Shown here: piece by piece, positions 26,454 to 58,861 of the stretch | Position numbering within the stretch: position 1 is the stretch's first letter | How the letters are laid out: each line of letters starts with the position of its first letter | Source: Microbacteriaceae bacterium PS02067 | GTDB lineage: Bacteria > Actinomycetota > Actinomycetes > Actinomycetales > Microbacteriaceae | Reading direction: 5' to 3' | Assembly (NCBI GenBank): GCA_029960085.1 | Contig: JASCPG010000002.1 | Location: 1-64,000, forward strand | Length of the DNA stretch: 64,000 nt | The notes under the pieces: model-generated | The model's database searches: none | The model's input: the letters and a program-made list of their open reading frames with translations, nothing else | What the model was told of the DNA's origin: nothing | Translations under genes and position numbers: made by a program

Positions 26454-27461
26454 TCAGGCGGCGCCGAACTCGGTCTCGCCGAGTTCACCGAGGATCCGGT
26501 TGAGATCCTGCACGGTGGCGAAATCAATGATGATCTGGCCTTTTCGTGCCGTCAGCGCGATCTTCACCTTCGTGTTGAGACGGTCGCCGAGCTTCTCAGC
26601 GACATCGTCGAGGTGCGCCCGACGAGCCCCTGCCTTGGGGGCCGGTGTCTTCACGCGGCCCGCCGGGGCACCCTTCGCCGCGGCTTCCGCCGCGCGGACG
26701 GAGAGGTCCTCGTTGACGATCTTGTCGGCCAGGCGCTGCATGGCATCCACGTCGTCGAGCGAGAGGATGGCTCGTGCGTGACCGGCGCTGAGCACGCCGG
26801 CCGCGACCCGCTGCTGCACCGGCATGGGGAGCTTCAGGAGCCGGATCGTGTTGCTGATCTGCGGGCGGGAGCGGCCGATACGGGTCGCGAGCTGCTCCTG
26901 CGTGATCCCGAAGTCGTCGAGGAGCTGCTGGTAGGCGGACGCCTCTTCCAGGGGGTTCAGCTGCGAGCGGTGGAGGTTCTCGAGCAGCGCGTCACGAAGC
27001 AGGTCGTCGTCCGCCGTCTCGCGGACGATGGCGGGGATGGACGTGAGTCCCGCGGCGCGTGAAGCGCGCGTGCGGCGCTCGCCCATGATGAGCTCGTATG
27101 CCCCGTCGTCGTTCTTCCGCACGACGACCGGTTGCAGCACACCGAACTCGCGGACGCTGTGGACGAGCTCCGCGAGGTCGTCGGGGTCGAAGTTGGTGCG
27201 CGGCTGGCGCGGGTTCGGGACGATGTCGTTCGGGTCGATGTGGACGAGACGCGCCCCCGGGATCTCGACGAGCTCGGCCGTGACCTCGACGGTCTCCTCG
27301 GTGTCAGCCACGGCGGCATCCGCTGCCCGCTCGACGATCTCGGTAGCGGCCGGCGCGGTGGATGCCCCGGGGAAGAAGACGTCGACGGGGCGCGTCTCGG
27401 CACTGTCCGTGGTGGGGATGAGGGCGCCGATGCCCCGTCCGAGTCCTGTGCGCTTGGCCAT
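26454..27461 (-). CDS. parB: Chromosome partitioning protein ParB
   Basis: 335 aa. It binds parS and slides along DNA as a CTP-dependent clamp to organise and segregate the origin. After a variable N-terminal tail of about 80 residues come the CTP/ParB-Srx domain (LVHIDPNDIVPNPRQPRTNF ... LIMGERRTRASRAAG) and the box with LHRSQLNPLEEA. The helix-turn-helix that reads parS follows (ITQEQLATRIGRSRPQISNTIRLL), and then the C-terminal dimerisation region. The start overlaps the parA stop by one nt (TGATG). Nine parS sites lie just beyond parA. Confidence 0.95.
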   Translation of the reverse strand: MAKRTGLGRGIGALIPTTDSAETRPVDVFFPGASTAPAATEIVERAADAAVADTEETVEVTAELVEIPGARLVHIDPNDIVPNPRQPRTNFDPDDLAELVHSVREFGVLQPVVVRKNDDGAYELIMGERRTRASRAAGLTSIPAIVRETADDDLLRDALLENLHRSQLNPLEEASAYQQLLDDFGITQEQLATRIGRSRPQISNTIRLLKLPMPVQQRVAAGVLSAGHARAILSLDDVDAMQRLADKIVNEDLSVRAAEAAAKGAPAGRVKTPAPKAGARRAHLDDVAEKLGDRLNTKVKIALTARKGQIIIDFATVQDLNRILGELGETEFGAA

Positions 27462-28393: not shown

Positions 28394-28525
28394 CACTGAC
28401 TCCTGTTCGTTGCGGGACCATCCCACTGTAGTCGACCACCCACCCCCCGGCTCCCCCGGCCACCCACCGGTATCCCCCGCCGGTGATCGAGTGCCGCGCG
28501 CAGCGCGGTGTATCGAGATCACCCG

Positions 28526-30049
28526 GTTTCACGTGAAACATGAGCTGTGAGTGTGTGGTTTCGATACGGCCGCTGCGCGGCCTACTCAACCACCGAGGCG
28601 CGGCTCACCACCCGGTGATCGAGTGCCGCGCGAAGCGCGGCGTATCGAGATCACCCCGTTTCACGTGAAACATCGTGCGACGTGAGTGGTTTCGATACGG
28701 CGGCTTCGCCCCCAACTCAACCACCGAGGCGGCTCACCACCCGGTGATCGAGTGCCGCGAGCAGCGCGGCGCATCGAGATCACTCGCCGTCCGCGAAGTC
28801 CTTCTTGCTGAGGGCGGGGAGATCCTCTCCGCGGAACTCGATGAGGGCTTTCCGCTTCGCGCGACTCCACCCCTGCACCTGCTTCTCTCGCGCGAAGGCC
28901 TCGTCGATGCGCGCGAACTCCTCGACGTAGACGAGTTCCAGGGGTCTACGGCGACGAGTGTACTCGGCACCCTCGCCGACGTCGTGCTGCCAGAGACGTC
29001 GTTCTATGTTGACCGTGCTGCCGACGTAGAAGGAACCATCCGCGCACTCGAGGATGTACATATACGCCATCACTCGAGTATCGACAGATGGGGATAGTGA
29101 CGTTCACACACGGGTGCGAAATGGGGATGAACAGCGACATTGGCCCACTGTGGAGGGGGCGGCGTGGTTTCGATACGGCGGCTTTGCCGCCTACTCAACC
29201 ACCGGGGGTGGTCCCGTCAGGCCGGTGATCGAGTGCCGCGCGCAGCGCGGTGTATCGAGATCACAGCGTTTCACGTGAAACATCGTGCGGCCTGAGTGGT
29301 TTCGATACGGCGGCTTCGCCGCCTACTCAACCACCGGGGGTGCGACGTGAGTGGTTTCGATACGGCGGCTTCGCCGCCTACTCAACCACCGAGGGGGGGT
29401 TCCGGTCCGGCCGGTGATCGAGTGCCGCGCGAAGCGCGGTGTGTCGAGATCACAGCGTTTCACGTGAAACACCGTGTGGCCGCGTGGTTTCGATACGGCG
29501 GCTTCGCCGCCTACTCAACCGCCGGGGCGGCTAGCCACCCGGTGATCGAGTGCCGCGCGAAGCGCGGTGTATCGAGATCACACCGTTTCACGTGAAACAT
29601 CGTGCGGCCTGAGTGGTTTCGATACGGCCGCTACGCGGCCTACTCAACCACCGAGGGGTGGTCCCGGTCCGGCCGGTGATCGAGTGCCGCGCGGAAGCGC
29701 GGTGTATCGAGATCACACCGTTTCACGTGAAACACCGTGTGGCCGCGTGGTTTCGATACGGCGGCTTCGCCGCCTACTCAACCACCGGAAGTGGTCCCGC
29801 AGGCCGGTGATCGAGTGCCGCGCGCAGCGCGGTGTATCGAGATCACCCCGTTTCACGTGAAACATCGTGCGACGTGAGTGGTTTCGATACGGCCGCTTCG
29901 CCGCCTACTCAACCACCGGGGGTGCGACGTGAGTGGTTTCGATACGGCGGCTTCGCCCCCTACTCAACCACCGGGGGTGGTCCCGCAGGCCGGTGATCGA
30001 GTGCCGCGCGCAGCGCGGTGTATCGAGATCACACCGTTTCACGTGAAAC
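28526..30049. other. parS: Cluster of eight parS centromere sites
   Basis: The 14-bp palindrome GTTTCACGTGAAAC occurs at 28526-28539, 28658-28671, 29268-29281, 29457-29470, 29585-29598, 29720-29733, 29850-29863 and 30036-30049, always followed by A. This matches 15 of 16 bases of the universal bacterial parS TGTTTCACGTGAAACA. All are exact in the core, so all should bind ParB, encoded 1-3 kb away. Confidence 0.95.
28780..29070 (-). CDS. GIY-YIG domain nuclease embedded in the parS array
   Basis: 96 aa from ATG 29070 (GTG 29073 possible). It is a single-domain GIY-YIG protein of the short UPF0213/YhbQ type: the two-strand core YMYILECADGSFYVGST, the following Arg-rich helix (NIERRLWQHD), and the metal-binding Glu in AFAREKQVQGWSRAKR. 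No DNA-binding appendage is seen. Cellular roles of such stand-alone proteins are mostly unknown. Its stop codon is written by the GATCAC end of a B palindrome. It takes the position that a parS occupies in the other eight units. The upstream 90 nt (29074-29163) are unique, then the next A palindrome begins. Confidence 0.88.
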   Translation of the reverse strand: MAYMYILECADGSFYVGSTVNIERRLWQHDVGEGAEYTRRRRPLELVYVEEFARIDEAFAREKQVQGWSRAKRKALIEFRGEDLPALSKKDFADGE

Positions 30050-30161
30050 ATCGTGCGGCCTGAGTGGTTTCGATACGGCCGCTGCGCGGCCTACTCAACC
30101 ACCGGGGGTGCGAAGTGAATGGTTTCGATACGGCGGCTTCGCCGCCTACTCAACCACCGGG

Positions 30162-30791
30162 TCAGGCGCGGGTGGCGCGGATGACGCGCGTGGGCTCGGC
30201 GATGACGCCCTCGCCGACCACCTCGACGCGCACGTCGGTCAGCTTGTACTTGCGAATGGCCTTCTCGGCGGCGTCGATCTCGTTCGCAGCGTTCGCGCCC
30301 TTCAGGAGGATCAGCTCTCCACCCGGGCGCAACAGCGGTGCCGTCAGCGGGATCAGCGTCTTCAGTGCACTGACCGCCCGCGCCGTCACGGCATCCAGCA
30401 CAGCGCCGCGCTTCCACTCCTCGCCACGACCGCGCACCACTTCCACATTGTCGAGACCCAGGGCCTCCACCTGCTCGGTAAGCCAGGCGACGCGTCGCTC
30501 CATCGGCTCGATCAGCACCCACTGCACATCGGGGCGCGAAATCGCCAGCACGAGCCCCGGCAGTCCGGCGCCCGATCCGATGTCGCCGACCACGCCGCCG
30601 GCGGGGAACAGCGGGGCCGCGACCGCCGAGTTGAGGATGTGGCGCGACCAGATCCGCGGCGGCTCGAGCGGGCCGATCAGCCCGCGCTCCTCGCCGTGCT
30701 CACCAAGCGCCTGCGTGAACTGCCGCGCCAGCGCGATCCGGTTGCCGAAGACGTCGGATGCCTCGCGCGGCTCAGCCTCGATCATCACCAT
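30162..30791 (-). CDS. rsmG: 16S rRNA (guanine-527-N7)-methyltransferase
   Basis: 209 aa from ATG 30791 (ATG 30785 is also possible). Methylates N7 of G527 in 16S rRNA. SAM-binding motif GDIGSGAGLPGLVLAI, then VLIEPMERRVAWL and the RsmG signature VTARAVSALKTLIPLTAPLL are visible. The start codon directly abuts a parS (30791-30806), so ParB binding could affect initiation of this reading frame. It follows khpB with a 22-nt gap, as in most bacteria, and its stop touches the last A palindrome of the array. Confidence 0.93.
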   Translation of the reverse strand: MVMIEAEPREASDVFGNRIALARQFTQALGEHGEERGLIGPLEPPRIWSRHILNSAVAAPLFPAGGVVGDIGSGAGLPGLVLAISRPDVQWVLIEPMERRVAWLTEQVEALGLDNVEVVRGRGEEWKRGAVLDAVTARAVSALKTLIPLTAPLLRPGGELILLKGANAANEIDAAEKAIRKYKLTDVRVEVVGEGVIAEPTRVIRATRA

Positions 30792-30806
30792 GTTTCACGT
30801 GAAACA
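30791..30806. other. parS: parS site at the rsmG start
   Basis: TGTTTCACGTGAAACA, a perfect 16-of-16 match to consensus parS. It fills the 22-nt gap between khpB and rsmG and its last base pair is part of the rsmG start codon. It is the only site of the nine that is outside the palindrome array. Confidence 0.93.
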
Positions 30807-40589: not shown

Positions 40590-40673
40590 CGTTTCGACTC
40601 ACTGCGCTCGCTCAACGACCGATCCGGTTCGACCCCGGTCATCGAGCGAGGAGCGCAGCGACGAGCCGAAACG
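40590..40673. repeat. Inverted palindrome pair between gyrB and gyrA (REPIN-like)
   Basis: Left element CGTTTCGACTCACTGCGCTC... (40590-40621) and right element CGGTCATCGAGCGAG...CCGAAACG (40636-40673) are reverse complements with a few changes. They are of the same class as the C/D repeats at 58.2-58.9 kb. They fill most of the gyrB-gyrA spacer and can fold into one long or two short hairpins in the mRNA. Confidence 0.8.
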
Positions 40674-43691: not shown

Positions 43692-43779
43692 GCGATCTGG
43701 ACTCCGGTGGTCGAGTGCCGCGCGCAGCGATCTGGACCCCGGTGGTCGAGTGCCGCGCGCAGCGCGGTGTATCGAGACC
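43692..43779. repeat. B-type palindrome with a 35-bp tandem duplication
   Basis: The unit GCGATCTGGACYCCGGTGGT... is repeated head to tail (43692-43726 and 43727-43761, one mismatch). The second copy continues into a complete B-type palindrome (GGTGGTCGAGTGCCGCGCGC ... TATCGAGACC, 43741-43779). It lies between the DUF3566 gene and tRNA-Ile and can form a hairpin at the end of the gyrBA-DUF3566 transcript. Confidence 0.75.
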
Positions 43780-58219: not shown

Positions 58220-58861
58220 CGTTTCGACTCGCCGCGGTGCGGCTCGCTCAACGACCGGGGGTGCTGTTCTGGTCGTTGACCGAGCGAAGCGAGTGGAAAC
58301 GTTCGTGGGGTGGGCGGGGGCGTTTCGACTCGCCGCGGTGCGGCTCGCTCAACGACCGGCGGTGCCGTCCTGGTCGTTGACCGAGCGAAGCGAGTGGAAA
58401 CGTTCGTGGGTGCGCGGGGCGTTTCGACTCGCCGCAGTGCGGCTCGCTCAACGACCGGCGGTGCTGTTCTGGTCGTTGACCGAGCGGAGCGAGTGGAAAC
58501 TTTTGTGGGGTGGGTGGGGCGTTTCGACTTGCCGCGGTGCGGCTCGCTCAACGACCGGGGTGCTGTTCTGGTCGTTGACCGAGCGGAGCGAGTGGAAACG
58601 TTTGTGGGGTGGGTGGGGCGTTTCGACTTGCCGCGGTGCGGCTCGCTCAACGACCGGGGGTGCTGTTCTGGTCGTTGACCGAGCGAAGCGAGTGGAAACG
58701 TTTGTGGGGTGGGTGGGGCGTTTCGACTCGCCGCAGTGCGGCTCGCTCAACGACCGGGGGTGCTGTTCTGGTCGTTGACCGAGCGAAGCGAGTGGAAACG
58801 TTCGTGGGGTGCGGGGGGCGTTTCGGCTTGCCGCGGTGCGGCTCGCTCAACGACCGGGGGT
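58220..58861. repeat. Tandem array of a 100-bp unit made of two inverted palindromes (C/D)
   Basis: C palindromes (CGTTTCGACTCGCCGCGGTG ... GCTCAACGACCGG) start at 58220, 58321, 58420, 58520, 58619, 58719 and 58819. Between them lie six D palindromes (GGTCGTTGACCGAGCGAAGC ... GTGGAAACG), each a diverged reverse complement of C. The linkers TGCTGTTCT and TTCGTGGGGTGGGTGGGG are also conserved. The period is 99-101 bp. The array fills almost the whole 737-nt space between tRNA-Leu and the GntR gene, and the last C ends 5 nt from that gene's stop. No gene is seen in it. Confidence 0.93.

Follow-up and report, generated by a model that had tools for sequence, protein, structure and literature searches.

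Chromosomal centromeres of the parABS type carry their parS sites near oriC. The locus described here resembles such centromeres in its exact parS palindromes beside parAB, and differs from them in the tight interleaving of parS with pairs of REP palindromes and a nuclease gene, with nine sites fitting within 2.3 kb. How did repeats and an enzyme gene come to lie among these sites, and did they multiply the centromere? The stretch of DNA that was analyzed (64,000 nucleotides, hereafter the window) is the start of a 109.7-kb contig in the draft genome of Microbacteriaceae bacterium PS02067 (3.03 Mb, 164 contigs). Its minus-strand gene order is jag, rsmG, array, parA, and parB, names that we assign from general family knowledge and gene order (Table 1). 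The reading that we favor, with a probability of roughly two in three, is that REPIN-like repeats served by a GIY-YIG nuclease of their own moved into a parS cluster already in place and copied portions of it.

Table 1. Features of the parB-rsmG region in the window (positions are those of the window).
Feature	Position	Strand	Basis
parB	26454..27461	-	ORF
parA, inferred start codon	27461..28396	-	ORF; homologues found at 119/134 genus loci
REP B1	28481..28522	+	palindrome search
parS 1	28526..28539	.	exact core
REP A1	28555..28594	-	palindrome search
REP B2	28613..28654	+	palindrome search
parS 2	28658..28671	.	exact core
REP A2	28686..28725	-	palindrome search
REP B3, right arm holding the GIY-YIG stop codon	28742..28783	+	palindrome search
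GIY-YIG nuclease gene (96 aa), in the parS position between B3 and A3	28780..29070	-	PF01541 E 6e-19, translation
REP A3	29164..29203	-	palindrome search
REP B4	29223..29264	+	palindrome search
parS 3	29268..29281	.	exact core
REP A4 + A5	29296..29390 (29296-29335, 29351-29390)	-	palindrome search
REP B5	29412..29453	+	palindrome search
parS 4	29457..29470	.	exact core
REP A6	29484..29523	-	palindrome search
REP B6	29540..29581	+	palindrome search
parS 5	29585..29598	.	exact core
REP A7	29613..29652	-	palindrome search
REP B7	29674..29716	+	palindrome search
parS 6	29720..29733	.	exact core
REP A8	29747..29786	-	palindrome search
REP B8	29805..29846	+	palindrome search
parS 7	29850..29863	.	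exact core
REP A9 + A10	29878..29972 (29878-29917, 29933-29972)	-	palindrome search
REP B9	29991..30032	+	palindrome search
parS 8	30036..30049	.	exact core
REP A11 + A12	30064..30158 (30064-30103, 30119-30158)	-	palindrome search
rsmG	30162..30791	-	ORF; homologue in 141/149 genus genomes including the window's
parS 9, beyond the repeat array	30792..30805	.	exact core

The array is built from eight B-parS-A units and one B-GIY-A unit. Eight exact GTTTCACGTGAAAC cores lie within it, as the sequence-only reading had described, and a ninth lies at 30792; these nine are all the exact cores (0 mismatches) in the 3.03-Mb genome, in which no core with 1 mismatch was found. The consensus assumed for these sites is the general parS one. 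Matches at up to 3 mismatches number 11 in the window versus 0.97 expected, and no shuffle reached 11. Whichever reading of the repeats holds, the sites are presumably functional in the centromere. The palindrome core is N4-GAG-hairpin-CGA-N4', in which the N4 arms are complementary to each other. Two other early observations held as well: B is a diverged reverse complement of A (12 A and 9 B copies), and the distance from B to parS is nearly fixed (45 bp in seven of eight units, 46 in one). The order B-parS-A had been claimed for nine units but applies to eight, since the third B is followed by the GIY-YIG gene and then A. From one B to the next, the steps measure 132, 129, 481, 189, 128, 134, 131, and 186 bp. 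The gap from parS to A is 28-30 bp. The eight B-to-A units have a mean identity of 92% (range 85-97%), and longer stretches of the array are also repeated. The inverted two-palindrome unit by which REPINs are recognized (B on the plus strand, A on the minus strand) is present in the window and at loci L105 and L109. The array is real; its exact number of units could reflect assembly of the draft, but similar arrays occur in single-contig relatives (L074 of G138 and L115 of G067). A single B-like palindrome lies away from the array at 43744-43779 (+).

The third unit encloses the nuclease gene, which the sequence-only reading had overlooked, instead of parS, and the right arm of B3 supplies the stop codon. 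The encoded protein scores 68.5 bits against PF01541 (cut-off 22.6). All 16 aligned sequences share Y5, Y15, G17, R25, H29, and E62, the residues that we take to be catalytic in GIY-YIG nucleases. The protein belongs to the same single-domain family as the small UPF0213-type GIY-YIG proteins of structures 1zg2 and 1ywl (profile E 4e-21 and 5e-16). Nuclease genes that reside among parS sites look constrained, with dN/dS values of 0.08-0.16 in eight pairs (dS >1 in seven) and a ninth pair that is saturated. They also mirror the relationships of their hosts (Mantel r 0.59, p 0.0005, n=13; r 0.56, p 0.025, n=5), which would also fit a domesticated gene. Decayed copies of the parS-resident gene, split, interrupted, or fused, were seen at L138, L144, L151, and L134; they suggest birth and death of the element, and the nuclease tree was built without them.

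Whether the repeats explain the number of parS sites can be judged from relatives in the genus (probably Microbacterium). At least one exact core is present in 143 of 149 genus genomes, with up to 14 per genome. The comparison used 134 rsmG regions (133 from relatives plus the window), and parA was located in 119; left out were the 15 intervals in which parA was not found in the stretch, 8 of the 149 genomes without an rsmG match, and 7 more on fragmented contigs. Sites were counted over the interval, 30 bases into parA, and across rsmG to 150 bases past it. Each of the 119 measurable regions holds at least two exact parS. The median stands at 6 whether or not the interval holds the nuclease gene (Mann-Whitney p=0.44), and independent tree pairs show no trend of parS number with gene presence. 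The parS cluster is a genus trait, because relatives without the gene and repeats have equal parS numbers. REP amplification was therefore rejected as the cause of the high parS number. The initial proposal of a centromere multiplied together with a REPIN-like repeat stands as local co-copying, given the similarity of the units and the differing site numbers of related genomes (L281 and L289, below), and falls as the explanation of many parS. Additionally, 61 of the 119 intervals have a parS cluster with zero regex-defined palindromes of the array kind, and the self-repeat content of the interval has a median of 51% with the nuclease gene versus 0% without it (p=1.6e-11). Because self-repeats track the gene and parS number does not, it seems that the repeats joined parS clusters rather than giving rise to them. 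The first parA codons coincide with part of a parS core in L063, L064, L067, and some other relatives; the window does not share this arrangement.

The simplest form of that proposal is plain tandem duplication, in which parS units multiplied through unequal crossing-over at the palindromes and needed no enzyme of their own. Its attraction lies in the 85-97% identity of the units, the repetition of longer stretches, and variable unit numbers: the related genomes L281 and L289 have 12 and 6 parS, and gene-free arrays differ too (12 in L119, 9 in L122). Turnover of parS number between close relatives showed no clear difference and looked no faster when the gene was present, a point against the nuclease-based reading. 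Tandem duplication leaves unexplained the tie between palindromes and nuclease, in the genus and beyond, and we give it very little probability.

This tie was measured with a palindrome regex composed after several arrays had been inspected, which gave 285 matches forward and 12 for the reversed control. In a separate search for perfect arms, which was noisy and returned no arms for many loci, the motif gave 227 matches versus 53 for CGA...GAG; TCG...CTC (222) is the reverse complement of the motif and hence no control. At least four palindromes lie between rsmG and parA in 25 of 52 gene-bearing genomes versus 0 of 67 gene-free ones (p=1.4e-11), with parS masked in this comparison and in those of two-palindrome counts and self-repeat content; in 5 of these 25 the gene is located elsewhere in the genome. 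The gene lies inside 23 of the 119 intervals, and at least two palindromes are found in all 23 versus 11 of the 96 that do not hold it. The tie is imperfect, however: 20 of the 52 gene-bearing genomes have fewer than two palindromes in the interval, and 2 of the 67 gene-free genomes have at least two (L186 has 3). On a ParA-RsmG tree, on which gene presence in the interval requires 12 changes, 20 independent gene-discordant pairs showed palindromes differing in the same direction in about 10, in the opposite direction in 0.1, and equal in 10 (median p 0.002).

In the genus as a whole, 24 of 74 nuclease genes sit just downstream of rsmG among parS sites, two of them with parA off the contig. 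These parS-resident genes fall in two clades of the nuclease tree, although a single origin with losses may also be compatible with that tree. One tree row, L153, was tagged parS from its 8-kb stretch while its gene lies outside the rsmG-parA interval; the two clades stand without it. Matching repeats on the two sides of the gene were found at 18 of 18 genus gene loci without parS and at 11 of 13 with parS, versus 1 of 53 control windows (parS was left unmasked in this and the other flank-matching tests, phylum-wide and of named loci). Twenty non-parS gene contexts were sampled, of which six had been inspected beforehand, all six with palindromes. Nuclease and repeats are associated, and we infer that the nuclease drives the spread of the repeats.

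The window genome contains a second copy of the nuclease gene, in a trpA-lgt interval of 1966 bp with 13 regex palindromes and no parS. In relatives the same interval measures 22-173 bp and lacks a nuclease gene in 22 of 22 cases (24 searched, 22 of which gave both genes), and comparison of these intervals indicates that the gene-repeat unit was gained. Strict matches to the second nuclease's palindrome number 100, spread over 21 contigs of the window genome, and none of them lies inside the parS array. In the window, REPs of its type (CGTTGAGCGAG...GAGTCGAAACG) occur four times at 58220-58752 (-) and once at 40590-40617 (-). A genome-wide family was also considered for the A palindrome and rejected, as 12 of its 12 strict matches in the window genome are array-bound; B-like palindromes outside the array number seven in that genome.

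The two parS-resident clades allow repeat type to be compared with enzyme lineage. Repeats of the parS-resident clade II share a mean 9-mer containment of 0.256 (26%) with those of related nucleases elsewhere versus 0.007 (0.7%) with repeats that accompany clade I genes in the parS interval itself, a difference reached by 0 of 500 label shuffles. Here parS and the gene were masked, the clade II comparison drew on the four rows out of six that contained repeats, 3 of 53 rows (two of clade II) lacked repeat 9-mers, and related rows are non-independent. Because clade II repeats match those of relatives elsewhere and not those of clade I co-residents, enzyme lineage, not location, sets the repeat type.

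A passenger model would instead have a homing-type GIY-YIG gene insert into existing palindromes, which spread otherwise. Free-standing GIY-YIG homing endonucleases are known, and the nuclease gene does sit exactly between B and A, replacing parS. This model is nevertheless at odds with the dependence of repeat type on nuclease clade and with the absence of intervals with at least four palindromes among the 67 gene-free genomes. Moreover, a profile search found the Y1 transposase (PF01797) in 0 of the 23 genomes with the gene in the interval, in a search that covered Y1 alone among transposases; the control search was positive in 5 of 14 known genomes, Escherichia coli included. The same result led to the rejection of RAYT-driven spread in these genomes. 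We consider the passenger model distinctly improbable.

The preferred reading, colonization by a repeat family with its own nuclease, would run as follows. Inverted B/A palindrome pairs would have colonized a genus-normal parS cluster between rsmG and parA, with the small GIY-YIG nuclease encoded within the array as their putative cognate enzyme. The nuclease, whose candidate activity is nicking or cutting at the palindromes, would be followed by recombination repair from other copies, which could spread and duplicate the pair and produce tandem growth. parS would be carried along because it lies between two palindrome arms. Such a system would be analogous to REP-RAYT, with a hydrolytic nuclease replacing the tyrosine transposase, and would mean that mobile-type repeats are able to lodge in the centromere, a chromosomal site that cells cannot do without, and to copy it. 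The palindromes are most likely hitchhikers there.

Alternatively, the array could be a centromere architecture selected by the host, in which palindromes aid parS by insulating it from rsmG or parA transcription, by limiting ParB sliding, or by providing homology that maintains copy number, with the nuclease retained for upkeep of the array. The apparent constraint on parS-resident genes and their agreement with host phylogeny are in keeping with this, as are their number downstream of rsmG (24 of 74, in two nuclease clades) and the confinement of the A-type palindrome to the array when the other nuclease's palindrome is scattered over 21 contigs. Two Cryobacterium genomes (L320 and L332) also have the gene in a parS cluster, across parB and downstream of it rather than between rsmG and parA. 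A centromere role keeps some plausibility because the A palindrome is array-confined and the Cryobacterium gene lies in a parS cluster beyond parB. However, 96 of the 119 genus intervals have a parS cluster of equal site number without the gene inside, 61 are palindrome-free by regex, and the same gene-repeat unit occurs at loci without parS, such as trpA-lgt. Host selection is thus an unlikely account of the array.

The partnership extends to other taxa. In a scan of named genomes (one per species, from which the best 80 loci were taken), a repeat links both sides of the gene at 69 of these 80 loci, versus 3 of 141 controls in the same loci, and no linking repeat was found at the other 11. 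Among the best loci with at least 300 bases per side, 63 of 73 are linked. Loci titled outside Actinomycetota are linked in 22 of 26 cases; these come from Chloroflexota, Chlorobi, Bacteroidota, Betaproteobacteria, Treponema, and others, with two mislabelled records excluded. L309 (titled Stenotrophomonas maltophilia P13) has Microbacterium-like jag, rsmG, parA, and parB beside parS and the nuclease gene, and in L340 (titled Planococcus sp. APC 4015) Microbacterium-like jag and rsmG adjoin parS and the nuclease gene; by their sequence, both records look mislabelled or contaminated.

The partnership has limits. A phylum-wide draw of 346 genomes yielded 26 with a nuclease match, and 7 of 28 loci (L245-L272) are linked: 5 of 5 at 53% identity or higher, and 2 of the remaining 23 (L261 and L265, with repeats CGTCATTGCGAG and TGTCGTTGCGAG on one strand). 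Because only these 7 of 28 are linked, the repeat link is limited to one subfamily plus a few further members. Among more distant homologues, the five at L251-L255, which we take to resemble YhbQ by sequence, lack linked repeats in the flank-matching test; the association is therefore not general to small GIY-YIG proteins.

REPs are common in bacteria, and the literature examined describes no enzyme dedicated to them other than the RAYT transposase. Compared with the REP/REPIN-RAYT (REP-associated tyrosine transposase) systems (PMC3116915; PMC8266576; PMC3733652), the repeats described here are likewise short, imperfect intergenic palindromes, often in inverted pairs, with a dedicated gene amid repeats of its own, a pairing of repeat type with enzyme lineage, and copies away from the gene, such as the 100 strict matches to the second nuclease's palindrome. 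In contrast, the gene encodes a GIY-YIG nuclease (PF01541) and not an HUH/Y1 transposase, and the core is N4-GAG...CGA-N4'. Many gene-flanking palindromes contain GAGTAG, counted as presence of the string and not scored as the published GTAG end tag.

Another REP class, tagged with CGTC, was described in a 2013 survey as apparently having no transposase of its own; its repeats have a CGTC or variant tag and an 8-9 bp stem starting with AT (Di Nocera et al., 2013; PMC3733652). The Microbacterium palindromes differ in that they were not found to bear a CGTC tag. In a plasmid collection, 12 loci were hand-picked from 37 matches, for spread and, in some cases, for species named in PMC3733652; 11 of the 12 are linked, under a looser E-value limit than in the named-locus test. 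Seven of the 12 have repeats of the CGTC description beside the GIY-YIG gene: Azospirillum, Sinorhizobium (CCTC variant), Rhizobium, Shinella, Neorhizobium, Neisseria, and Photobacterium (one side only). Within 40-kb regions of four Alphaproteobacteria (Sinorhizobium, Azospirillum, Shinella, and Rhizobium), chosen from plasmid loci already showing CGTC repeats, the gene has a CGTC-type REP no more than 300 bases away on either side in 4 of 4 cases versus 0 of 330 control windows; any linked repeat was found in 7 of 330. In the Azospirillum 40 kb, all four CGTC-type REPs flank the gene.

Small GIY-YIG nucleases may mobilize a large REP superfamily in several phyla, CGTC-tagged repeats included, which would spread by break repair and not by transposition, with one Microbacterium lineage resident at the centromere and parS as its cargo. 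To this wider proposal we would give even odds. The partnership points to a possible enzyme behind a type of short repeat found in many bacteria, and a clade-matched candidate makes the CGTC-REP question testable with one purified protein. The parS cluster is ordinary for the genus; the surprise is the nuclease-repeat partnership exposed there. GIY-YIG is named 0 times in the text of PMC3733652, and no paper linking GIY-YIG genes to REP-type repeats was found in the open-access literature, mostly abstracts; preprints and most subscription papers lie outside this scope, and earlier publication is possible.

The plasmid loci show varied settings of the gene. In a Planktothrix plasmid (L360), the GIY-YIG gene has an MmeI-type restriction-modification gene on one side and the DISARM gene drmA on the other, with TGTCATTCTGAG-type repeats around it. 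In an Azospirillum lipoferum plasmid (L353), the gene and its REPs occupy the sufB-sufC gap of a suf cluster.
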